A DNA stretch of 36,407 nucleotides from an uncultured Pseudoflavonifractor sp. GTDB taxonomy: Bacteria; Bacillota; Clostridia; Oscillospirales; Oscillospiraceae. The position numbers and the translations under genes were made by a program. Of this stretch, positions 2,091-34,590 are shown piece after piece; position 1 is the first letter of the stretch; the number at the start of each line of letters is the position of its first letter. The notes beneath the pieces were generated by a model. The model was not told the origin of the DNA. It saw only the letters and a program-made list of their open reading frames with translations, and searched no databases. Where the stretch lies: positions 1 through 36,407 of the forward strand of contig CANRZY010000009.1 of NCBI GenBank assembly GCA_947644625.1, given 5' to 3'.

Positions 2091-2129
2091 AAAAACAGCG
2101 CCCGGCGGCTCCGAAAACCGCCGAGCGCT
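2091..2129 (-). terminator. Terminator of the XRE regulator gene
   Basis: Arms 2097-2108 and 2118-2129 pair with a single mismatch. On the minus strand a T run (2095-2091) follows. The stem overlaps the stop codon of the regulator gene (2128-2130). Confidence 0.8.
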
Positions 2130-2370
2130 ATTTGATTTCCTGTTCCAGAGCGTCAAATTCCGGGGTGGAGAAAAACTCTCCCAAGGTGATCTCAAGACCG
2201 TCACAGAGTTTTTTGATGGTCACTGCACCTGGATTTTGACTTTCTCCATTCAAAATACTTTTGATTGTTGATTGTGGTACTGCGGCAATATTGCTTAACC
2301 CGTTTGGCGTAATATGCCGCTCGTTACACAGTTGAACGATGCGATTGACGATTGCCGCACGGGTATCCAT
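2128..2370 (-). CDS. Small XRE-family helix-turn-helix repressor
   Basis: An 80-aa cytoplasmic DNA-binding protein consisting of little more than one HTH domain of the Cro/C1 (XRE) type. The HTH core runs about residues 8-65: IVQLCNERHITPNGLSNIA is helix 1-2 and PQSTIKSILNGES is the recognition part, followed by the typical TIKKLCDGLEITLGEFF segment. I take ATG at 2370, with AGGGG eight bases upstream; a TTG two codons earlier is the alternative. It is divergent from an 82-aa small protein, and the 120-bp gap contains two nested perfect palindromes that are the likely binding sites, so autorepression is the natural inference. GC content is clearly below that of the neighbouring genes, which may point to transfer. 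The signal that inactivates it is unknown. Confidence 0.88.
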   Translation of the reverse strand: MDTRAAIVNRIVQLCNERHITPNGLSNIAAVPQSTIKSILNGESQNPGAVTIKKLCDGLEITLGEFFSTPEFDALEQEIK

Positions 2371-2388
2371 AAGCAACGCCCCTAAGAT

Positions 2389-2769: not shown

Positions 2770-5700
2770 TTATTTCTCCGTGTAAATACGGACGTCGTCA
2801 ATGTAGGAAGTCAGCATCTCGCCTTTATAGCTGTTGCAGGAAAATTGAAGAAGCCCCACACTCTCCTGCACCGTACGCAGCGGATATGTGCCCAGCAGTT
2901 TTCCATCCAAATAAAAGTGCATGTCCGCCCCGTCGATAATCATGCCGACGGTGTACCATACGCCCGTTTTCGGCTTGGCGACCTCTACGCGCGTCCCCGA
3001 CCCCGCTGTTTTATATACCTTCAGCGAGCCGCCCTCCAGGATCGAACCACAAATGGGGTCCTCCGTTTTCTCCTGCTGAAAAACGGCGGGAGCGGCATAG
3101 TAGCTGATGGTAGTATCAGAACGGATCTTTGCTTCAACGTACACCTTACCCGATGTGGAGACGCTGTCAAAACTTCTGAGGGCCTCCACATACAGCCGGG
3201 GCGTCTGCTGCTGCTTGGTCTGGACAAGCTTCAGGTATTGATTCCCCGCGTCCCCGGCCAGCTCTATCGTTCCGGCGTCCCCTTGGCAGGTATCAAAGCT
3301 CCACCCCTCCAGGTCAGCCAATTCCGCAGCCTCATCAAAGGTATCGTTGACGATATAGTTTCGTTCCACAAGGGCGTCAATGGCCGCCGTGATCCGGTCG
3401 GCGCAATCTCTCATGTCCTCAGGACCGCAATCCATACCGGTCTGAACCGCAGTTTGCAGCGCCGCATAGCTGTCGACGGTGTAATCCTCCCCATCGCACC
3501 CTTCCGCCGCTGCCAGCGCGTCCTCCAAGGCCTTCTGGGCGCCCGCATCAATTGCCGTTACCGTTATGGTAGCTTCCACCTTTGTATCCAGCCCTGCCAG
3601 CACGCCGTTTACCGTGACAGTACCGGCGGAGGCAAACTGCTCCCCGGTCAAACCGGACCAATCCGCCATTGCGTACCCATGACTTCCGTCGGCGTATTCT
3701 ACCGCGACAAACAGCGGCAGATCTCCGGGGATCTGCCCCTCCGTGGTTGAACACGCAACCGCGGCTACGCTCACGAGCTCCGGCGCCGTTGGGCGCTGCT
3801 CTTTTGTCAGAGCCTCAAACATTGCCTGGGCAATCATGGCATAGCCTTCGCACTGCATAACGCCGCCCGTTACCGGACCATAGCCATGCACACCGTCAGG
3901 AAACTGTGTATCAGGAGCCTCCGTGCCGCCCTGCGCGCCTGTAGCGCTCTTTGTCGCTTTCTGCACATCCACATATCCGGAATCCGTAATCAGCGCGATC
4001 TGCTTTTGAAGAGGAACAACATAATCATTCAACCGGTTCAATGTGGTCGTGTTGCTGGTCTTGAAATAGGTTGCGGAGGTCGCCACGTAGATTTGAACGT
4101 CAGGGTTGGCGTCCTGATAGCTCTTAATTAGGCTCAGTGCGTCGGGAACATAGTCAGCCTGATACTTGGTCCAATTTTCATCCTTACAGTCGTTTGTCCC
4201 CAGCATCAAAAGCACGATGTCCGGCTGATAGGCCAGGCTGGCCTGATACTCAGGCTTTTCGCCGGTGGTATACCCCGCCGCCTCTTTGCCGTTATTTCTT
4301 GTGCCGTTGTTTACCATTGTAGCGGCATTCCGGCCAAAATTTTGGACCTCATAGGTCTTGCCGGTTGTCTCTTTGGCGTCGTCCAGCAGCCTTTGAAGCA
4401 TGGCGGGGTACGTCTTGTCCGCGTCCACCTGCCCGCTCGACGTACCGTCATTGCCATAGGTGATACTGTCTCCGATGCAGGCAATCTTGATTTTATCGGG
4501 ATCATCGGGCTCTTCCGATCCCGTCCCCGCTTCCTGATAGACCCGGACGTCGTCTAAATAGAACGTCCCGTTTCCGTTCTTGTAATCATCAGAATAGAAC
4601 CGAAGCAGACCTATGGTATCTGCGGTATTGCGCATGGGATGATCTCCGCCAAGCTGTTCCCCGTCCAGATAGATCTGTATTTTTCCGCCGTTGATAATCA
4701 TACTAAGCGTATGCCACGTTGCGGTTTTAAAGCTGCCAACCGTTTTTTGGCTGCTGCTTCCCGCCGTGCTGTACACATTTACTTTGTTGTTTTGCAGGAT
4801 AGCGGCGCAGAGGATCGTACCGGGATAGGTCTGCCTGTTTTGAAACACAAAGGGCGCGCCATAGAAGGTCGCCGCCGTGTCGGAGCGTACCTTCGCCTCA
4901 ATATACATCTTACCAGAGGTCTCCGGAAAGCTTCTGAGCGCTTCTACCGACTTTGACTTTTCCTGTGTTGTCTGCGCAAGCTTCAGGTATTTGTTGCCGC
5001 CGTCCTCCTCCAGCGTCACCGTACCGACGGTCTCAATGAACTCCCAGCCCGCGTTCTCCAGGGCCGTCAGGTCGCTCGCGTCGTCAAAGCGGTCGTCGAC
5101 GATGTAGGCCCCTCTCTCTACCAGCGCGCTTATGGCGTTGGTGATCTGCGTGGCGGCAGCCCCCATGGCCTCCAGTGTGGCGGCCTCTTCGCCAGCTTTC
5201 ACCGCCTTTTTCAGTACCGCGTAGCTGTCCACCGTGTAGGAATCCGCCTTACAGCCTGCCGCTTCCTCCAACGCCGCCTCCAGGGCCTTCTGCTGGGGCG
5301 AATCCTCCCCCGATACGGTCACCACAGCCTTCGTGGAAACCTCCAGCCCCTTCAGCTTTCCCGTCACGTTTACCGTACCCACGGCGTCAAATCCAACTCC
5401 ATCCAGGGACCATTCCACCTGGGCGACGCCGGCGCCGCCCCCTTCATAGCTCACAGCTACAAAATCCGGCAGCTGCGGGCTCACGCCCAAAAGCGTAGAA
5501 CAGGCGTAGTCCACCGTCCGGGTAATGGCGGGCGCTTTGGGAACATCCGTCTTTGCCATAGCGTCGCCTATGGCGCGCGCAAGGATGGAATAGCCCGCCG
5601 CTTTGGGATGGACATTATCAAAGAACAGTTCCGTGGAAACGGCGGGGATGGCGGTATGGGTATCAATAAAGCCCACATCCGCAATCAGCGCGGCCTGTTT

Positions 5701-8700
5701 TTGAAGGGGCACCACCTGCTCATGGACCACGTCCGCCTGGATGTCAAAGCTGTTGCTTCCCGCCACCGGAGAAGCTGCCAGGTAGACCTTGGGGTGGGAG
5801 GGCAGGTCCTGATAGCTCTTAATAAGCTTCAGCGTATCGTCAATAAATTCCGTCTTCTGGGCATCCCAGTTATAGGGCTTGGAATCGTTGGTACCAAGCA
5901 TGATTACTACGATATCCGGCTGGAACTCCCGGCTTTGAGTATACTGGGTCTGAAATGCGTACCCTTTTTTCGCGTTATTTTTATCAATACCATCATACAG
6001 CATGGTAGCGCCGCTTATCCCGAAATTTCGTACGTCATAATTGTCGCCCAGATAAGTTTGCAGCTGTCCGTGAAGCTGCTCCTTTTCCGTTTTACCTTCG
6101 GTCGTAACGATCCGCTTGGCTTCGGTGATACTGTCTCCTACACAGGCCACCTTGATTTTGGCCACCGTCAATTTTCCAGTGGCCTGGATGCTATACGTAT
6201 TTGTTATCCCATTTGGAAGCCTCAAATCACTGGTAAAGCTGTATGTCCCAGCCGCACCGGCGTTGTAAGCGTCACAGGTCCACCCGACAGCCTCCATCTC
6301 CTGCCAGGAATCGTCGCCCAGCTTTACTCTCACCCTCGCAGGAAGAGCGGCTATCGCATCGTCCAGCGCCGTCCCAAGCGGAACCTCTGCCGTCACAGGG
6401 GCCGCATAGGAAACGTCGTTGTCGTCGGTAACGATCCCAAAGGATTCCTGATAAACGTTCAAATCATCCAGATAGAAAATACCCTTCGGACGGCTTGTGT
6501 CTTTATCATCAGAATAAAACCGCAGCATACCAAGCGTGGTCAGCGGATTACGCATGGGCAGGTCTGTCGCTATCCGCTCCCCGTTTACAAATACCTGCAT
6601 TTTTTGCGTCCCACTGTCCACGATCAGGCTGATAACGTCCCATTCTCCACTCTTAAAGGTACCGACCTGCTTCATGGAGGAGCTGCCCGCCTTATATGTG
6701 GCCATGATTTTTCCATCGTCGCGCAACGCAAGCGCTCCAAGGATCGTAGCAGAATCCTTGTTCTCGTACAAATATGGCGCGCCGTAGAAGGTTTTGGGCG
6801 TATCGGAGCGGACCTTTGCCTCAATGTACACCTTTCCGGAGATCTCTGTAAAGCTCCTTCTCGCCTCGACGGAGGCAGCTTTTTCCGTCTGTGCGATCTT
6901 CAGGTACTTGTTATCATCGCCCTCCAATGTTACGGTACCGTTGGTTTCAATAAATTCCCAACCATCCAACTCTCCACGCGTATCGACCTGAAAGTCGTCT
7001 ACGAGGATATTTTTCCGCCTTACCAGCATATCCGCCGCATTCTTCAACGTATTTACAAGGCCGACCGCCTGCTGCTCCCCGCCAACGCCGCTTTCCACAA
7101 TGGCTTCCGCCTGCCGGATCGCCGCCAGCACCGGGGCGTAGCTGTCGACGGTATATTCCCCGCCGTTCAGTCCCTTCGCCGCTTCCAGAGCGGAATTCAA
7201 TTCCCGCAGAGTTTCAGCGGATATAGGGATCTGTCTTGTTCCTTGCAGCTCGATCTCAAAAATAGAGGCGTTTCCGCTGTTGGTGGAGTTTCCTGACACG
7301 TTAACGCGCACATACCGCGCACCCACATTGTTTAAAGCGTCCTCCACAACGCCGGCTGTTGTATTATTGGAGCGGTCCACTACCTGCGTATAGGTTTCCC
7401 CATCCAAACTGGTCTCGACGGTGTACTTGTACGCGCGGCTGCCGCTGACAAACCAGCTTATGCCGATCCCGGTCAAGCTATAGGGCTCTCCCAGGTCCAC
7501 CTGGATCCACTGGGGATAGGAACCTCCGTTTGCCGCCCAGCGTGTATCAGGGTTTCCGTCAACGACGTACTCAGCCAGATTGCCGTTCTGGGACTCAGTG
7601 GAGGAAGCGGTCACCTTCAGTTTACGGTACTGCTTTACCTCCAGGATCGCCTGCTGAAGGGCCTCATAAGCCGTCAGCTTCTCTCCACGGGAGGCAGTTG
7701 TCAGGTCGATCTGCTTATACCGGTCATAAACCGGCACAAACCGGTCAATGGACGCTTGGTCATAGGGGGAAATGGGAAGCTCCGACGCAGCAAGGATAGA
7801 CCCGCACTCATCAAGGGTCGCCTGGAGCAGGGCGTCAATATCCCGCAACATCTCAACACTCCTCACCGCGCCCGCCAGCTGGGCATAGCCCCGGCGCACA
7901 GCGTCGGCCCCAGACTGACTCAGCGCCCTTTCTGCCTGGGCAAGCGCGTTTTCCAGGATCTCCTTCCCGGTGGGATCGCTCTCCTGGGAGGCCATGGCGG
8001 AGACCTCTTCCATATAAGCCTTCAGGACAGCCCCCGGCATAGAAAGAAGCTTGGGGGTCTCTCCCGCGTCCCGGTTATACACCGAATGATAGCTTTCCGC
8101 CGGGCCCTGGTTGGACGTACGCAGTCCGCCGGTATTGATCACGATACGGTCCACCGACACCCCCGCGTCCACCATATACAGCTTGACCATATGATAACCC
8201 CTGTCGGGCACATGGATGGTTCTGGTCAGCCGTTCGATCCCGTTTGTAACGTTTGTCTCCCAGGCCGTATTGTCCGAAACATGATTGCCTGAGAACACCA
8301 CCGGCTCGCCGTCGTCCACACCAATAGCCAGCCGCTGCCCCACCTCGTCCAGAGAGGGAACGCGGTAAACCGTGGTTTCAAAATCGCCCGCGGTCTGGAA
8401 GTAAACCGGATAGGTCAGGTAAGGCGCGCTCTTCACGTTATCCGCATAGTTCGGCGTACCCATGGGTCCTGCCGAAACCGAGGCTCCCGATCGGCCCAAC
8501 CCGTCAAACGCGAAAAATCCGACATCGCCGTCCTTGACGCAATCCGTATAATGCTCCGCCTCGATAGCCACATAGCCGTTGGCCTCTCCGTAGCCATTGA
8601 GCTGCTCCCGGACCAGGGCAGGATTGTTTACCCGCACCGCGATCTCTTTTGTTCCGCCCGCGCCCTGAATGGTCAGGGTGGCGGTCTGGTCTCCCGCCGG

Positions 8701-11700
8701 GAGAGTGGCCCAATCAATGGTGACAAACAGGCGCAGCTCATCATAAACCGTGCCCTCAGCCTCCGAAAGCTTTACCCAGGGCTGATCCGCCGCCGCCGTA
8801 AAAGCAAAGGCCTTCCCGCCCAGGTTAAATACGTCCACATAGCGGGTATCGTGCTGATAGGCAGAGAAGTCCAGAGCGCTGTCCTCCGCCTGCTCCATTT
8901 CCCCCTCCACAACAACGCCCAAGCCGCTGAGATAGGGCACGCTGGTTATAGCCGCCCCCTTCGGCTTTGCCGGGGCGATATTGGAATGGAGGAAATTGCC
9001 CGACTCCATAATGCCGTCCCATTTCCCGTCGGAAATGCGTTTATTGTAGTGGTCCTTGGCGTCGTCCTCCTGGGTCTGGGCCCAGTCGATCAGCTGGGTA
9101 TACAGGTTTGCCGCGGCGGTACGCCCCTGGCTGCTGTAGAGCTGGCTCTTCTGGGCGTAGTAATACTTCAGGTTATTATAATAAGACGCCTCAATGGGGT
9201 ACACCACATGCTGATAGAAGGCATCCCCCTGGGTTTTGTCCAGTCCGTTCAGAACGGCGGCGGCCCGTCCAAACAGCTCCTGATAATCGGCCAGGCGCTG
9301 CATGGATTCATCGCCGTAATTGACCGGGTCATATACCGCGCCGCGGGAATCGCTGAGGGTGGTATGCTCAGGCTTGCGGGAATAATTCAGGTGATAGTAC
9401 TCCCGCAGGATCTGCCCCACCTCAGCGCTGTCCGCATCGGGGAACCATTTCTCAGAAAGCTCCTGGAAAAAGCTGTCCCCGCCGTCCTGGCCCATCAGGT
9501 TGTCTGCCGTCCATTTCTCCATATCCCAGGCAATATCCAGGAAGAATTGCGCGCCCTTCTCATAGGGCTTGATATCGCCCACATTCAGCACCCAGAGCTG
9601 CTGTACTCCGGCCTCATAGGCCTTGCTCATCTCACTGAGGATCAGTGCGGGGGGAACGGAATCCATCCACAGATAGCCCTGCCTTCCGTTATACTGCAGA
9701 TGGTAGTATACGCCGTTCCCGCCTTCCCGGGCCTGTTCCTCCGCCGTGGGGAAATGCCGGATAAAGCCTTGGTTATCCTCCGCCCACACGATCGTCGTAT
9801 CCTCGGGCAGCTTCAGGCCCAGGTTATAAAGGGGCAGGACCTCTTTGTAGGGGACAAAGATGGGGAAGGACTCCTCGTTGGCGTCCTTCATCATTTCCAC
9901 CTGGCTGTCCACCACCGCCTGGAGCACATCCCGCTTTTCTTGATCGGTTTTCGCGTTGGCCGTCCGGAACCCGCTGTCATGCAGGCCCCGCATTCCCAGG
10001 GTGTAGGAGACCGGCACATCCTTATACCAGTCGATCCCCTGCCGCCAATAGGCGTCAATAAAGCCCCGGTTTTCGGTTATGCTGTAATCATACTTGGGGA
10101 AGCCGTATTTACCGGCGTTGTCGTTCATCCAGTTGTCGACCTTATTGCTTTTTCCCACGACCTCGGTCTGTGTCTTTCCTTCAAAATAACCCTGCGTCTG
10201 CAGGTAGTCAAACCAGTCCGCCGTGCCGTTCATCATCATGGGTTCGCAGTGGCTCGTGCCCACCACGACGCCGTATTCGGCCGCCAGCTGCCGGTTTTCG
10301 GGATATTTATTGAAATGCGCCACCGGGCCAAGACGGGGCTCGGAATGCATGGCGGTCCATAAATAGTTTGCCCTCAGACGCAGCAGCAGCTCATAGACCT
10401 TTTTGTAGGTCTCCGGCCCGATATTGTTTACGGGGTCGTTCCCGTTCTTTGTCCAGGCATACAAGCTTTGTTCGTCGTTAATGAAAATGCCGCGGTATTT
10501 GACAGAGGGCTCCCCCTGCACCTTGAGAGGCTCTGAAATAAAGACCCGGTTTTTCACCTCGGGCAGGATATCCCCCCAATAGTACCAGGGAGATACGCCA
10601 ATCTGTTCGGAAACATCGTAGATCCCGTAAATCGTGCCCCGCTTGTCGCTGCCCGCGATGACCAGCGCCCTGTCTACGCCCTCCATGGGCTCATCCACGA
10701 TCTTAATGATGTAGCTTTCCCACTTTCCCTCCAGATCCCTGGCCTCATCCAGCTTCCCAGCGGCCATCAGCTCTCCGATCATCTGACTGTTTTCCACCGA
10801 GCCCACGATAATGGCCAGGCCGGACAGCTCCGAGCGGTCATGCCGGACAAGGGGCTTGACCTCCGTGACCCGCTCTACATCCAACTGCAGATCCCCCACG
10901 GCACGGACGACCTGTTTATAGTCCGTCTCCTCCACATAAATATCCGGGACCGTAGTCCCCTGAAAGAGGACAAAGGCGCCCTCCGGAATCGGCTTTTCCG
11001 TTACGGTCACGGAAAATTTCGCGGTCCCATCCTCATACCCGTCGGCGGACGCGGTGACCGTCACAAGGGAGGTCCCCGGCTTTTTTCCGGTGACCCGAAC
11101 GGTATGTCCGTCCACCATGACGGAAACCACACCGGTATCGCTGCTGGCGGCAGTCAGTACGGCATTCTCCGGAACGGTAGTAAAGCGCACTTCCGCACTT
11201 TCCTCCTCCGGCAGGTCCTTTATGTCTCCGCCGCCCTGGATGGATACCGCTCCGGTAGCGCTTGATCCTGTGTCGGTATCCTTATCGCTCTCCTGGGGAC
11301 TGGGTTTCGGCCTTATCACCTGAGTGTCGGCGGGCGTCTGGATATGTTCCACCTTGGCGTTCCCGACCATCTCCACCGTTACCTTTTCGGCGTTCTCCTG
11401 GACCTTGAGCGTTGTAATACTGCTCTTTCCGGTAATCTTCACCTGTACGCCGTCCGCGCTTACGATCACAGAGTCAGCCTCGGTGTCCTTCAGCTTTACC
11501 GCTCCCTGTCCAGCGCCTCCGCCAATCAGCAATGTCCCCACTACGGTCCCGCTGACAGTAACTCCACCGGACGCCACCAGCACGAGTCCGGTCCCATTGT
11601 TCCCGTCCAGCGTATAGGTTCCAGGCTTCGCGATATAGGCGCTGATCGAACGGTTCAGGATGGTGACCACCTCAGCCCGGCTTATATCCTTCAGCGGCGC

Positions 11701-12249
11701 CAGACGCCCTTCAGAGGTCCCCTCCACGATCTTAGCCTCCATCAGCGCCGCCACGGCGCCTTTTGCCCAGTCCGCGACCTGTTCCCCGTCGGCAAAGCGA
11801 TCCACCGGCAGGTTTTCCACCGGCTCGATTGCCAACGACCGCGCAATCACCACCATGGACTCCTGACGGCTGATCCGATCATTTGGACGGAAAAGACCGC
11901 CGCTTCCCACCATGATCCCGGCCTCGGCGCATTTCAGCACCGCCTCGGTATACCAAGCGTCCCCCTCCACATCCGCGAAGGGATTGGAGGTCTGTTTCGT
12001 CAGCTTCAGCAGATTGGAAATGACCTGTGCCACCTCCGCGCGGGTAATGGGATCCCCTGGGCGAAACCTTCCATCGTATCCCTTCATGACCCCGTGCTGG
12101 TTCCAGGTCTCAATAGCCTGTTCCGCCCAATGCCCCTTTATATCAGCAAAGCTTTCCCCATTGCCCGGCGCGGCCACGGCTGGAACCATTCCCAACAGTA
12201 TGACCAACACCAAAAGCATGGATACCATTCGTTTCAACTGTTTTTTCAT
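2770..12249 (-). CDS. Giant SLH-anchored GH115 alpha-glucuronidase with two SGNH esterase domains
   Basis: A 3159-aa secreted wall protein. ATG at 12249 follows AAGGAGGAG and begins a signal peptide (residues 1-28). Domains in order: three SLH repeats (about 33-205) for binding wall polysaccharide; a beta-strand-rich segment (207-310); an acidic linker; a BIG2-like Ig domain (350-420); a GH115 catalytic and C-terminal region (425-1380; RGIFINDE at 587-594, LLLRLRANYLWTAM at 621-634); a helical stretch; a CBM32/F5-8C module (1543-1672); then a repeated tail of FIVAR (1678-1745), laminin-G-like module (1748-1935), Ig-like (1940-2030), SGNH esterase 1 (2031-2233), Ig, FIVAR, laminin-G-like (2382-2573), SGNH esterase 2 (2588-2816), Ig, FIVAR, laminin-G-like (2965-3157). 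Both esterases keep all catalytic residues: GDS with Ser2040 and Ser2595, GTND with Asn2121 and Asn2686, Asp2211/His2214 and Asp2785/His2788. GH115 enzymes release 4-O-methyl-glucuronic acid from xylan; the SGNH domains probably remove acetyl groups, though their substrate is not shown. No other xylan genes are adjacent. Confidence 0.9.
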   Translation of the reverse strand: MKKQLKRMVSMLLVLVILLGMVPAVAAPGNGESFADIKGHWAEQAIETWNQHGVMKGYDGRFRPGDPITRAEVAQVISNLLKLTKQTSNPFADVEGDAWYTEAVLKCAEAGIMVGSGGLFRPNDRISRQESMVVIARSLAIEPVENLPVDRFADGEQVADWAKGAVAALMEAKIVEGTSEGRLAPLKDISRAEVVTILNRSISAYIAKPGTYTLDGNNGTGLVLVASGGVTVSGTVVGTLLIGGGAGQGAVKLKDTEADSVIVSADGVQVKITGKSSITTLKVQENAEKVTVEMVGNAKVEHIQTPADTQVIRPKPSPQESDKDTDTGSSATGAVSIQGGGDIKDLPEEESAEVRFTTVPENAVLTAASSDTGVVSVMVDGHTVRVTGKKPGTSLVTVTASADGYEDGTAKFSVTVTEKPIPEGAFVLFQGTTVPDIYVEETDYKQVVRAVGDLQLDVERVTEVKPLVRHDRSELSGLAIIVGSVENSQMIGELMAAGKLDEARDLEGKWESYIIKIVDEPMEGVDRALVIAGSDKRGTIYGIYDVSEQIGVSPWYYWGDILPEVKNRVFISEPLKVQGEPSVKYRGIFINDEQSLYAWTKNGNDPVNNIGPETYKKVYELLLRLRANYLWTAMHSEPRLGPVAHFNKYPENRQLAAEYGVVVGTSHCEPMMMNGTADWFDYLQTQGYFEGKTQTEVVGKSNKVDNWMNDNAGKYGFPKYDYSITENRGFIDAYWRQGIDWYKDVPVSYTLGMRGLHDSGFRTANAKTDQEKRDVLQAVVDSQVEMMKDANEESFPIFVPYKEVLPLYNLGLKLPEDTTIVWAEDNQGFIRHFPTAEEQAREGGNGVYYHLQYNGRQGYLWMDSVPPALILSEMSKAYEAGVQQLWVLNVGDIKPYEKGAQFFLDIAWDMEKWTADNLMGQDGGDSFFQELSEKWFPDADSAEVGQILREYYHLNYSRKPEHTTLSDSRGAVYDPVNYGDESMQRLADYQELFGRAAAVLNGLDKTQGDAFYQHVVYPIEASYYNNLKYYYAQKSQLYSSQGRTAAANLYTQLIDWAQTQEDDAKDHYNKRISDGKWDGIMESGNFLHSNIAPAKPKGAAITSVPYLSGLGVVVEGEMEQAEDSALDFSAYQHDTRYVDVFNLGGKAFAFTAAADQPWVKLSEAEGTVYDELRLFVTIDWATLPAGDQTATLTIQGAGGTKEIAVRVNNPALVREQLNGYGEANGYVAIEAEHYTDCVKDGDVGFFAFDGLGRSGASVSAGPMGTPNYADNVKSAPYLTYPVYFQTAGDFETTVYRVPSLDEVGQRLAIGVDDGEPVVFSGNHVSDNTAWETNVTNGIERLTRTIHVPDRGYHMVKLYMVDAGVSVDRIVINTGGLRTSNQGPAESYHSVYNRDAGETPKLLSMPGAVLKAYMEEVSAMASQESDPTGKEILENALAQAERALSQSGADAVRRGYAQLAGAVRSVEMLRDIDALLQATLDECGSILAASELPISPYDQASIDRFVPVYDRYKQIDLTTASRGEKLTAYEALQQAILEVKQYRKLKVTASSTESQNGNLAEYVVDGNPDTRWAANGGSYPQWIQVDLGEPYSLTGIGISWFVSGSRAYKYTVETSLDGETYTQVVDRSNNTTAGVVEDALNNVGARYVRVNVSGNSTNSGNASIFEIELQGTRQIPISAETLRELNSALEAAKGLNGGEYTVDSYAPVLAAIRQAEAIVESGVGGEQQAVGLVNTLKNAADMLVRRKNILVDDFQVDTRGELDGWEFIETNGTVTLEGDDNKYLKIAQTEKAASVEARRSFTEISGKVYIEAKVRSDTPKTFYGAPYLYENKDSATILGALALRDDGKIMATYKAGSSSMKQVGTFKSGEWDVISLIVDSGTQKMQVFVNGERIATDLPMRNPLTTLGMLRFYSDDKDTSRPKGIFYLDDLNVYQESFGIVTDDNDVSYAAPVTAEVPLGTALDDAIAALPARVRVKLGDDSWQEMEAVGWTCDAYNAGAAGTYSFTSDLRLPNGITNTYSIQATGKLTVAKIKVACVGDSITEAKRIVTTEGKTEKEQLHGQLQTYLGDNYDVRNFGISGATMLYDGIDKNNAKKGYAFQTQYTQSREFQPDIVVIMLGTNDSKPYNWDAQKTEFIDDTLKLIKSYQDLPSHPKVYLAASPVAGSNSFDIQADVVHEQVVPLQKQAALIADVGFIDTHTAIPAVSTELFFDNVHPKAAGYSILARAIGDAMAKTDVPKAPAITRTVDYACSTLLGVSPQLPDFVAVSYEGGGAGVAQVEWSLDGVGFDAVGTVNVTGKLKGLEVSTKAVVTVSGEDSPQQKALEAALEEAAGCKADSYTVDSYAVLKKAVKAGEEAATLEAMGAAATQITNAISALVERGAYIVDDRFDDASDLTALENAGWEFIETVGTVTLEEDGGNKYLKLAQTTQEKSKSVEALRSFPETSGKMYIEAKVRSDTAATFYGAPFVFQNRQTYPGTILCAAILQNNKVNVYSTAGSSSQKTVGSFKTATWHTLSMIINGGKIQIYLDGEQLGGDHPMRNTADTIGLLRFYSDDYKNGNGTFYLDDVRVYQEAGTGSEEPDDPDKIKIACIGDSITYGNDGTSSGQVDADKTYPAMLQRLLDDAKETTGKTYEVQNFGRNAATMVNNGTRNNGKEAAGYTTGEKPEYQASLAYQPDIVLLMLGTNDCKDENWTKYQADYVPDALSLIKSYQDANPDVQIYVATSATYFKTSNTTTLNRLNDYVVPLQKQIALITDSGYVDVQKATKSATGAQGGTEAPDTQFPDGVHGYGPVTGGVMQCEGYAMIAQAMFEALTKEQRPTAPELVSVAAVACSTTEGQIPGDLPLFVAVEYADGSHGYAMADWSGLTGEQFASAGTVTVNGVLAGLDTKVEATITVTAIDAGAQKALEDALAAAEGCDGEDYTVDSYAALQTAVQTGMDCGPEDMRDCADRITAAIDALVERNYIVNDTFDEAAELADLEGWSFDTCQGDAGTIELAGDAGNQYLKLVQTKQQQTPRLYVEALRSFDSVSTSGKVYVEAKIRSDTTISYYAAPAVFQQEKTEDPICGSILEGGSLKVYKTAGSGTRVEVAKPKTGVWYTVGMIIDGADMHFYLDGKLLGTYPLRTVQESVGLLQFSCNSYKGEMLTSYIDDVRIYTEK
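2779..3357 (-). repeat. Laminin-G-like module, copy 3 of 3
   Basis: Encodes residues about 2965-3157 of the giant protein. It shares with the other two copies the pattern NDTFDE, GWSF, YLKLVQT, EALRSF, SGKVYVEAKIRSDT, FYLDG and a final YIDDVRIY. It is the most diverged copy (FSCNSYKGE instead of FYSDD) and ends the protein. Confidence 0.85.
4531..5106 (-). repeat. Laminin-G-like module, copy 2 of 3
   Basis: Encodes residues about 2382-2573. It is closest to copy 1: WEFIET, GTVTLE, SGKMYIEAKVRSDT, FYGAP, LRFYSDD, FYLDDVRVYQE. Base-level similarity to copy 1 is easily visible, for instance 4855-4925 against 6775-6845. Confidence 0.88.
6445..7008 (-). repeat. Laminin-G-like module, copy 1 of 3
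   Basis: Encodes residues about 1748-1935: DGWEFIETNGTVTLEGDDNK, SGKVYIEAKVRSDT, FYGAP, MLRFYSDD, FYLDDLNVYQE. The fold is likely a concanavalin-type jelly roll; such domains often bind carbohydrate. Confidence 0.88.
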
Positions 12250-12274
12250 TGGGAGCTCCTCCTTGTTTTTAATT

Positions 12275-12325
12275 ATTATCATTTCTCCCTTCGGGGAGAA
12301 ATGATAATGCTCTAGAGCATTATCA
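12275..12325 (-). promoter_or_regulatory. Overlapping alternative hairpins in the 5' leader of the giant gene
   Basis: Hairpin A: arms 12308-12294 and 12289-12275 pair perfectly over 15 bases around a four-base loop (CGAA in the mRNA). Hairpin B: 12325-12302 is a perfect 24-base palindrome with AGAGCATTATCA as its second half. The two share 12308-12302, so an mRNA can form one fully or the other, not both. They lie 26 bases above the start codon of the gene. The DNA palindrome could instead be an operator for a repressor. Confidence 0.6.
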
Positions 12326-12360
12326 CGCTTCATGTCACATATACATGAAAGTTGTTTTTT

Positions 12361-12389
12361 ATTATACCATCGTGGCCCATCACCGTCCA
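12361..12389 (-). promoter_or_regulatory. Probable promoter of the giant glycosidase gene
   Basis: On the minus strand TATAAT (12366-12361) is preceded by TGG (extended -10) and, after 17 bases, by TGGACG (12389-12384), which matches four of six -35 positions. Transcription from here gives a leader of about 105 bases containing the overlapping hairpins. Confidence 0.6.
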
Positions 12390-12501: not shown

Positions 12502-12540
12502 ATAAAAAAGAGCGTCGGCTCCTGCGGGAGCCGACGCTCT
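12502..12540 (-). terminator. Terminator of the xre-lspA-rluD operon
   Basis: Perfect 14-base arms at 12509-12522 and 12527-12540 with a four-base loop. On the minus strand the stem is followed by TTTTTTATG. It lies 216 bases after the rluD stop, beyond a 145-base structured repeat. Between it and the promoter of the giant gene (about 12391-12508) I see only AT-rich DNA with no gene. Confidence 0.8.
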
Positions 12541-12567
12541 TACCTGTTATATTCTTTTTGTCGGCAA

Positions 12568-13667: not shown

Positions 13668-14130
13668 GGCCGCCCTCCTTGTCCTTGTCCTTGTCCCACA
13701 GCAGCAGCACATAGAAGACCATGAGAAAGCCTCCCGCCACCACGCAGATATCCGCCACATTGAAAACGGCAAAGTCCATGAAGGTGGTCTCAAACATATC
13801 GGTGACAAAGCCCAAAAGGGCCCGGTCAATGAGGTTTCCCACCGCTCCGGCCAGAATGAGGGAGAGGGACAGCTTTCCCCAAGCGCCGGGAAAGTAGTTC
13901 TTTGCCAGCAGTACCGCCACCACGATGGAGGCCCCCAGGGACACCAGGGTGAGGAGCCAGGTCATACCGGAAAAGCTGGAAAAGGCGGCCCCGGTATTTT
14001 GGGTGTAGGTCAGATCTATCAAATGGGGAATAAAGGGGATGGACTCTCCCAGGGGGATGGAGGAGCGGACCCACCACTTCACCAGTTGGTCGAGCCCAAC
14101 CAGGCAGATCGGAAGAATATAATACAGCAT
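13654..14130 (-). CDS. lspA: Lipoprotein signal peptidase (signal peptidase II)
   Basis: Integral membrane aspartyl protease that cuts the signal peptide from prolipoproteins just before the lipid-modified cysteine. The 158-aa length and four hydrophobic segments (about 3-19, 56-77, 87-105, 120-145) fit the family. The conserved catalytic motifs are present: GNLIDR with Asp102, and FNVAD with Asp127, as well as NTGAAFS. It would serve the five binding lipoproteins encoded in this window. Its ribosome site AAGGAG is made by the last codons of the upstream XRE gene, which ends four bases before it, so it is coupled to that gene; rluD overlaps its end. The C-terminus is lysine/aspartate rich. 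Confidence 0.95.
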   Translation of the reverse strand: MLYYILPICLVGLDQLVKWWVRSSIPLGESIPFIPHLIDLTYTQNTGAAFSSFSGMTWLLTLVSLGASIVVAVLLAKNYFPGAWGKLSLSLILAGAVGNLIDRALLGFVTDMFETTFMDFAVFNVADICVVAGGFLMVFYVLLLWDKDKDKEGGHDPA

Positions 14131-17969: not shown

Positions 17970-19757
17970 ATGAAAAAAAATAAGTTGATGCCTTTTGTTC
18001 TGAGTGGGGCAATGCTCCTTTCCCTGGCAAGCCTTCCCGCTACCGCCACAGGCAAGGAGCCTGTGGACTTCGGCGATATGGAGGGCCATTGGAGCGCCGA
18101 GGCTGTAGACCGCTGGTCCGGCTCCGGGATCTTCCGGGGAGATGAAAACGGCAACTTTTTGCCGGATAAGGAAATGACCCGCGCCGAGTTTGCCCAAATG
18201 CTGGTCAACCTGATGGGGTATCCGGTCAAGGCGGAAAACAAGTACGCGGATGTTCCCGCCGACGCCTGGTACGCAGACGCGGTCCTGAAGCTGACCGCCG
18301 CCGGGGTCATGGAGGGAGATGGTTCCAACGCCATGCCCAACGCCCCCATCAGCCGGGAACAGGCCGCCGTGCTGCTGTGCCGGGCCCTGAGCCTGAAGAG
18401 CAGCGATGAGGCGAAGATCCTTTTTGACGACGCCTACCAGGTCTCCAGCTGGGCCAGGGACGCCGTGGCCGCTCTGGCGGAGCGGGATATGATCGCGGGA
18501 GTGGGAGAAAACAACTTTGCCCCCGCCCTGAATATCAACCGCGCCAGCGTGGCCCAGATGGTAAGCAATATGGTCTCCGCCTACGTGACCGAGGAAGGCG
18601 CTTCCGTGACCGGGGAGCAGAAGGGGATCGTCATAGTCGCCGCCGCGGATGTAACGGTGGAGAACGCCGTCCTTGCCGAGAGCCTGATCCTGGCCCCCAA
18701 GGCCTCCGGCTCCACTCTGACCCTAACCGGGAAGACTACGGCCGCCCAGGTGGTCCTGGCCGCCCAGGGCGGAAAGGTAATGGTGGAAAAGGACGCCTCT
18801 GTTAAGCGGGTCTTTGTAGAGGCCCCCAAGGCCGAGCTGACTGTAGCCGGAACAGTGGAGAACGTCACCGTAGCCGCCTCTGCCGCCGAAGCGGTCCTCA
18901 CCGTGGAAAAGGACGGCGTTATTGCCAATGTGGAGACCGCCGCTGATAAGGTGGCCGTGAAGGGCCCCGGAAAGATCGCCAGCCTTACCGTTACCAAGGG
19001 CGAGGGAGTCACCGTCAGCGAGGAGACCGTAGTCGATAAGGTGGTGAACCAGTCCAGCCACTCCGTCTTTGTAGGCAGGAAGGAGCTGAAGCCCGGCGCT
19101 TTTATAGGGGAGGATAGCTCCTCCGGCAGCGGCAGCGGTGGCTCCGGCGGCGCTTCCTCTTCCTCCGACACAATCTCGGTGACCTATGTGATTGGCAACG
19201 ACACTACGATCTATGCCGTTGCCAGGGGCGGCAGCGTAAGCGTTCCCGCCCTCCCTGCGGATGAGGAATATTTCTATACCGGTAAGTGGACCTATACTCT
19301 GGGCGGCGACACCGCCGTTTACGAGGCCCAGTCCGGCGATACCATTGAGAACGTGACCGCCGGGCTTACCCTCACCGCCCAGGCCTACGAGGTAAAGGCC
19401 GCCACCCCGGCGAAGCTTACTTATGCCTGCGAAAACGACGCCCTTCTTATTACGGCGGAAGGGAAGGACAAACTCATTATGAATACCTATGAGGTGGGCA
19501 ACGACGCCGGGATCGTGGAGATCGGGATGAAGTACACCGTCCCTGAAAATGCCAAAGGGCTGGCCGTTGCCGACACGCTGGAAGCTCTGCGCGCCGCCCA
19601 GCCGGAGGCTCCTGCCCCCACCGCCGTTACCGTACCCTTCGGCAAGGAGGGAGCGGTGGTAAAATACCTGCTGTGGACGGATAAGCAGGGAGAGATCCTG
19701 GCTGTGGAGAAGATCACGGTACAGCTTGCCGTTGATCCCACACGGCCGGAGGAATAA
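17970..19757 (+). CDS. SLH-domain surface protein with beta-strand repeat region
   Basis: A 595-aa secreted wall protein. The ATG at 17970 follows AAAGGAG and starts a signal peptide (1-27). Three SLH repeats span about 33-205, with motifs TRAE (70-73), SREQ (128-131) and NRAS (190-193). Residues 215-365 are a run of short valine/alanine/threonine beta strands, probably a small beta-helix, of the same style that follows the SLH repeats in the giant glycosidase. A Ser/Gly linker (381-400) leads to a 195-aa C-terminal part with two beta-rich, possibly Ig-like segments. No enzymatic motif is seen. It is likely a structural or adhesion component of the cell surface; I do not recognise a named family for the C-terminal part. 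Confidence 0.88.
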   Translation: MKKNKLMPFVLSGAMLLSLASLPATATGKEPVDFGDMEGHWSAEAVDRWSGSGIFRGDENGNFLPDKEMTRAEFAQMLVNLMGYPVKAENKYADVPADAWYADAVLKLTAAGVMEGDGSNAMPNAPISREQAAVLLCRALSLKSSDEAKILFDDAYQVSSWARDAVAALAERDMIAGVGENNFAPALNINRASVAQMVSNMVSAYVTEEGASVTGEQKGIVIVAAADVTVENAVLAESLILAPKASGSTLTLTGKTTAAQVVLAAQGGKVMVEKDASVKRVFVEAPKAELTVAGTVENVTVAASAAEAVLTVEKDGVIANVETAADKVAVKGPGKIASLTVTKGEGVTVSEETVVDKVVNQSSHSVFVGRKELKPGAFIGEDSSSGSGSGGSGGASSSSDTISVTYVIGNDTTIYAVARGGSVSVPALPADEEYFYTGKWTYTLGGDTAVYEAQSGDTIENVTAGLTLTAQAYEVKAATPAKLTYACENDALLITAEGKDKLIMNTYEVGNDAGIVEIGMKYTVPENAKGLAVADTLEALRAAQPEAPAPTAVTVPFGKEGAVVKYLLWTDKQGEILAVEKITVQLAVDPTRPEE

Positions 19758-34441: not shown

Positions 34442-34506
34442 TGTTTTTTCCTCCAATTCAAATTTGTATCTTCACGCCCCGGAAGGGGCCTTGATACCAA
34501 AAGAGC

Positions 34507-34558
34507 TTCTGTCCCACTTTAAGTGGGACAGAACGTGAAATGGCCCAGGCCATTTCAC
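34507..34558 (-). promoter_or_regulatory. Twin hairpins in the oppA 5' leader
   Basis: Two adjacent perfect inverted repeats: 13-base arms 34507-34519/34521-34533 (core TTCTGTCCCACTT) and 11-base arms 34535-34545/34548-34558 (GTGAAATGGCC). One base separates them. They lie between the promoter and the start codon, so both would be in the mRNA leader. Neither has a T run. Their loops (one or two bases) are too tight for a normal RNA hairpin without opening some pairs, so operator function is also possible. Confidence 0.6.
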
Positions 34559-34590
34559 TTCAGTAAAGCGTCAAAATTTGAACGGGCATT

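Follow-up and report, generated by a model that had tools for sequence, protein, structure and literature searches.

A giant gene on the minus strand of the window (the whole stretch of 36,407 nucleotides analyzed here, from contig CANRZY010000009.1 of an uncultured Pseudoflavonifractor sp.) is preceded by two hairpins that share an arm, which raises the question of whether this leader is a regulatory switch, a protein-binding site, a structural guard of the message, or a sequence of no function. Based on its translation and Pfam matches, the gene (2770–12249, minus strand; start ATG 12249) encodes a 3159-aa product with three SLH domains, GH115 catalytic and C-terminal domains, F5/8-type C and Big_4 domains, two GDSL esterase-like domains, and laminin-G-like domains. 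GH115 is an alpha-glucuronidase family. The product is a secreted surface protein whose signal peptide begins at ATG 12249. An ORF that runs on from GTG 12390 across the leader lacks a ribosome site and was taken as chance. The upstream neighbours on the same strand are lspA (from reading the ORF list) and rluD (Pfam), and their unit ends at a 15-bp intrinsic terminator (12508–12541, minus strand). Because this terminator sits before the promoter of the giant gene, the latter forms its own transcription unit; in minus-strand order, lspA/rluD and the terminator are followed by a promoter-like site, the hairpins H0, P1, and P2, the ribosome site, and ATG 12249. Beyond the 3′ end of the giant gene lies a small Cro/C1-type HTH gene (2128–2376, minus strand), which is split from it by an opposite-strand ORF (2445–2741) and is not co-transcribed with it. 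The genome assembly (1.9 Mb, 89% complete) contains SLH genes by the dozen.

A consensus scan predicts a sigma-70-type promoter (12361–12389, minus strand; 10/12 plus TG) that combines a −35 element TGGACG (12389–12384), a 17-nt spacer, and an extended −10 element TGgTATAAT (12366–12361), and from it we infer a transcription start at about 12355–12353. The promoter-like site (12389–12361) is upstream of all three arms of the hairpins, which agrees with the first-pass annotation in placing them in the leader, and direct reading and prediction gave no good promoter between 12302 and the start codon. H0 (12328–12350, minus strand; TTCATGT/ACATGAA with a 7-nt loop, present in the MFE and centroid folds) starts a few nucleotides past the predicted transcription start and is weak (about −5.8 kcal/mol). 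P1 (12302–12325, minus strand) is an inverted repeat in the form of a perfect 24-bp palindrome (TGATAATGCTCTAGAGCATTATCA; 24/24), which as RNA makes a 10-bp hairpin with a CUAG loop (−11.2 kcal/mol). P2 (12275–12308, minus strand) is also an inverted repeat, a perfect 15-bp hairpin with arms at 12308–12294 and 12289–12275 and a CGAA loop at 12293–12290 (−21.0 kcal/mol). The common arm b, ATTATCA (12308–12302), pairs with arm a (12325–12319) in P1 and with arm c (12281–12275) in P2, and the positions and pairings first reported for these arms were exact. That arms a and c are identical provides no separate evidence, because any two inverted repeats with arm b in common must have equal outer arms. 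Closer to the gene (12252–12263, minus strand), the Shine-Dalgarno sequence AGGAGG (12263–12258) overlaps an 8-bp palindrome (GGAGCTCC, 12259–12252), as had been noted at the outset. The H0-P1-P2 segment is bracketed by a 14-nt direct repeat (12365–12352 and 12276–12263; 13/14 identical), and with the segment removed the −10 box would adjoin the ribosome site. Given this bracketing repeat, an originally short leader may have gained the hairpins by insertion or duplication.

The 121-nt leader folds at −33.7 kcal/mol, far more stably than shuffled sequences (z = −6.5; 0/200 shuffles equally low), and two states are nearly isoenergetic when only the named helices are counted: state A, consisting of P1 and the upper part of P2 (−22.0 kcal/mol), and state B, consisting of the full P2 (−21.0 kcal/mol). 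With the whole leader left free, state B is favoured at about 75–87%. These are mutually exclusive alternative hairpins that differ by a 7-bp branch migration of arm b, with the GC-rich top of P2 common to both. The mutual exclusion originally claimed for P1 and P2 applies to the seven shared pairs and not to the upper 8 bp of P2, which are formed in both states. Following the order of transcription, the modelled probability of a–b pairing is 0.99 before arm c is made and about 0.2 afterwards, and the arm exchange itself is physically plausible in these models.

Shared arms of this kind had suggested an attenuator or leader switch, in which a ligand, protein, or RNA would trap state A or state B and so change expression. 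The near-equal energies of the states and the early formation of P1 in transcription are consistent with such a device, but the outputs sought did not appear. Using constrained partition functions, we found that the mean unpaired probability of the ribosome site is 0.35 in state A and 0.35 in state B, and that of the start codon is 0.39 vs 0.35; masking of the ribosome site in one state only, the mark of a translation-control switch, was not seen. There is no U tract after P1 or P2, the terminator scan of the minus strand lists no terminator there, a leader peptide preceded by a ribosome site was not seen on direct reading of the leader, and no Rfam cis-regulatory family matched the leader above its gathering score. 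A loaP gene was not found in the 89%-complete genome, and the sole NusG-like gene scores below the LoaP cut-off and adjoins secE and rplK, identifying it as the housekeeping NusG. Because access is equal and terminator, leader peptide, Rfam match, and LoaP are all missing, the leader has a shared arm with no visible output. Moreover, arm c is the last to be transcribed, so that P2 comes too late to influence what happens at P1 and has no antiterminator role on it, and the exchange is limited to 7 bp. The leader resembles attenuators with mutually exclusive hairpins (the rimP leader and others) in its shared arm and its states of similar energy, but differs from them in having no terminator, U tract, sensor, leader peptide, or masking of the ribosome site. 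A small stable hairpin ahead of a very long and costly transcription unit is likewise a trait of LoaP-dependent leaders (dfn/mln hairpin, UNCG loop), whereas the sense-strand loop here is CGAA (UUCG only in antisense), there is no leader terminator, and the only NusG is the housekeeping one.

To place this arrangement in its genomic context, a shared-arm pair was defined as two Watson-Crick hairpins, each with arms of 8 bp or more, that have 4 bp or more of one arm in common, and 1.56 Mb (82% of the genome) was scanned. The counts rest on Watson-Crick arms; GU-tolerant overlap scans were swamped by GC-rich coding sequence. Four pairs were found, and three first-order Markov controls gave 1, 0, and 1; the overlap limit behind this count was lowered post hoc from 5 to 4 bp to take in the C16 pair, and the 5-bp limit, applied to 1.09 Mb, gave two pairs (those of the giant GH115 gene and of contig C8). 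Three of the four are located in leaders of giant SLH genes: the GH115 gene (3159 aa), a 3981-aa gene on contig C8 (pair at 11955–12015 of locus L095), and a 2895-aa gene on contig C16 (pair at 19300–19349). The fourth lies in the rimP leader. Each of the three giant-gene pairs sits between a good promoter match (C8: TTGACA-17-TATTAT; GH115 gene: TGGACG-17-TATAAT; C16: TTGAAA-17-TATGAT) and a ribosome site. Their sequences are unrelated, and for this reason a structural role suits them better than a common binding protein; a common operator or repeat among SLH genes was rejected because the leader sequences differ. In C8 and C16, a terminator-like P1 directly follows the promoter and its U tract is the foot of P2, which is not so in the GH115 leader. 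It is possible that P1 of C8 and C16 is a premature terminator whose U tract is captured by P2, and the leaders of the three giants may differ in function. The terminator-like P1 of these two leaders, and the location of the shared-arm pairs of this genome in leaders including that of rimP, speak for a switch; set against the missing output, the late arm c, and the short exchange, they leave the switch reading of the GH115 leader weakly supported, and we consider a true switch decidedly improbable.

The rimP (ylxS) leader hairpin AGAGTGAGG...CCTCACTCTTTTT (own contig C1, about 74535–74576) recurs upstream of rimP in several congeneric species (L055, L060, and L069) and is a probable attenuator; it lies outside the window covered by the Rfam search. 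Leaders of the rimP class have been reported to be ubiquitous attenuators of transcription (PMC2965389). Another tandem arrangement was observed at 13923–13964 of contig C1, where hairpins GAGACAGCC/GGCTGTCTC and CCGGAGAAATTTCTCCGG precede a probable PTS transporter gene.

Additional giant genes were compared. In a congener's giant SLH gene (5827 aa; G007, L150), the predicted transcription start coincides with a perfect 18-bp palindrome, and an 11-bp hairpin follows directly. Among genes with a predicted promoter, leader hairpins of −20 kcal/mol or lower were found in 3/6 secreted giants vs 5/133 others (p = 0.002, from a small and post hoc comparison). Further giants of the genome (C21, C22, and C23) have no strong double hairpin. 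Most giant genes of the sampled congeners have no recognisable promoter, and the leaders that could be scored were too few for a replication of the enrichment. In signal-peptide genes in general, hairpins close to the ribosome site and lacking a U tract were not enriched (7/96 vs 27/418, p = 0.82). An arm (TGTCTTTCC/GGAAAGACA) present in both C8 and a G007 giant was dismissed as chance or terminator-derived, since its other matches were ordinary terminators. Two congeners carry orthologous secreted genes of 1725 and 1861 aa (L143, upstream of 1572; L144, upstream of 18507, complement), and their leaders of about 250 nt are recognisably related in sequence and contain several hairpins.

Homology searches covered relatives, distant loci, and mobile elements. 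No homologous leader was found in 149 related genomes, in which blastn gave only two short chance matches, and no close homologue of the giant gene was found in them (the GH115 search gave one match of 32% identity). Elsewhere, 14 distant GH115 loci were identified (27–36% identical), none of which has this leader; the closest (L008, 36% identical) encodes no SLH domain and shows no such hairpins before the gene. The P1 palindrome occurs once in its own genome, even with three mismatches allowed, and is absent from viral contigs; the leader is absent from plasmids.

These results bear on two explanations in which the RNA hairpins have no role of their own. P1 could be a DNA operator, with a dimeric repressor or activator bound to the 24-bp palindrome about 30 bp past the transcription start and blocking elongation or initiation; P2 would then be incidental or a second half-site array. 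The perfect symmetry of the palindrome and its position just downstream of the promoter suit a repressor site, and a possible regulator is encoded past the giant gene by the Cro/C1-type HTH gene, but the two genes do not form an operon. A Fur-type box match (12/14; TGATAATNATTATCA, 12281–12267), one of four in the genome with none in the backward control, also points to an operator, but its AT-rich surroundings weaken it, and the overlap is with arm c rather than P1. The single occurrence of the palindrome indicates that there is no regulon, although a gene-specific operator would be compatible with this, and the leaders of the other giant genes bear unrelated palindromes. Since an operator at P1 would also leave the longer and more stable P2 unexplained, we regard this explanation as unlikely. 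The alternative of no function holds that replication recently produced the perfect, overlapping inverted repeats by quasipalindrome template switching and that they have not yet decayed. Template switching is known to convert imperfect inverted repeats into perfect ones in bacteria (PMC7202029), and a recent origin is consistent with overlapping mismatch-free repeats that have no homologue in relatives and with the direct repeat that brackets them, as after local duplication or insertion. If such pairs arose at random, they would also be expected beyond genes or near terminators, but all four of this genome are in leaders and three of these precede giant SLH genes, which makes a purely mutational product an unlikely explanation as well.

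A second leader in the same window provides a comparison in which conservation can be followed. It belongs to an SBP_bac_5 gene for an oligopeptide-binding lipoprotein (leader 34450–34586, minus strand; gene start 34441) and consists of a promoter, a near-palindrome P1 (34558–34535), a perfect hairpin P2 (34533–34507), and a ribosome site, with a third, conserved element (GGTATC...GATACAAAT, a hairpin closed by GTATC/GATAC) between P2 and the ribosome site. The fold is again stable (z = −6.65). This leader was recovered from five congeners (69–81% identity) and, using a covariance model, from two further genera of the family, directly before genes for SBP_bac_5-like lipoproteins as judged from the N-terminal sequence. 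The sequences of its P1 and P2 vary among species and the hairpins stay perfect, with compensatory changes in 11 of the 41 predicted pairs; an invariant CCCG may pair with the ribosome site. Because P1 and P2 are kept in relatives through compensatory changes, the tandem leader acts as RNA, and with no Rfam match it is a candidate, from sequence comparison, for a new cis-regulatory RNA. It shares with the giant-gene leader the promoter, the palindromic or near-palindromic P1, the perfect P2, the ribosome site, and an exported product, but its P1 and P2 do not overlap, it has the third conserved element, and its structure is kept across species. The SBP_bac_5 leader shows that in this group tandem near-palindromes of leaders work as RNA structures, and by analogy only it supports an RNA rather than an operator reading of the giant-gene leader.

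Our preferred explanation, held tentatively and with rather less than even confidence, is that the giant-gene leader contains a promoter-proximal RNA double hairpin that guards the 5′ end of the very long mRNA for this surface protein. In this model, P1 would fold first as RNA polymerase leaves the promoter, and arm b would exchange between arms a and c once arm c emerges. In either state, some of the leader ahead of the ribosome site would be double-stranded, with the ribosome site equally open. The most likely job would be a passive one, i.e., to shield the 5′ region of the 9.5-kb message from 5′-dependent decay (RNase J/Y type), and the double hairpin would also prevent leader sequences from base-pairing to the ribosome site. 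The arm exchange would be a by-product of the origin of the element or a robustness feature, with no sensor involved. What is computed here is the anatomy with its energies, the equal access to the ribosome site in both states, and the recurrence in giant-SLH leaders; action at the RNA level and protection of the message are what we infer.

There is precedent for such protection: according to the accounts given in PMC3997798 and PMC7509114, the aprE mRNA of Bacillus subtilis is stabilised by a 5′ stem-loop together with ribosome binding (Hambraeus 2002), and papers by Emory and Belasco are cited there for 5′ leader stem-loop stabilisers. The aprE and ompA (Escherichia coli) leaders resemble that of the giant gene in having a stable stem-loop between the transcription start and an open ribosome site, in belonging to the message of an abundant exported protein, and in needing no sequence motif; the stable stem-loop and the open ribosome site are present in the giant leader by prediction. 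The known hairpins are at or near the 5′ end and their action has been shown, whereas the giant leader is known from prediction, its strong hairpins start about 30 nt in with only the weak H0 at the 5′ terminus, and its two hairpins share an arm.

A broader reading, which seems unlikely on the comparisons made here, is that a family-wide and undescribed class of leader RNA exists, a tandem double hairpin placed directly after the promoter that is free of conserved sequence and conserved in structure, in the leaders of giant surface proteins and of an oligopeptide-binding lipoprotein. The shared-arm form of the GH115 gene would be one version of it, able to exchange one arm. As a lead to a new RNA family, the SBP_bac_5 leader is firmer than the giant-gene leader, and the latter illustrates how a switch that looks attractive on the sequence may not hold up when its output is sought. 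The upkeep and translation of 9–12 kb messages for giant surface enzymes are little studied in bacteria. If a double hairpin defined by structure and free of conserved sequence is common to the leaders of giant genes, this would be testable by measuring half-life and would provide an engineering rule.
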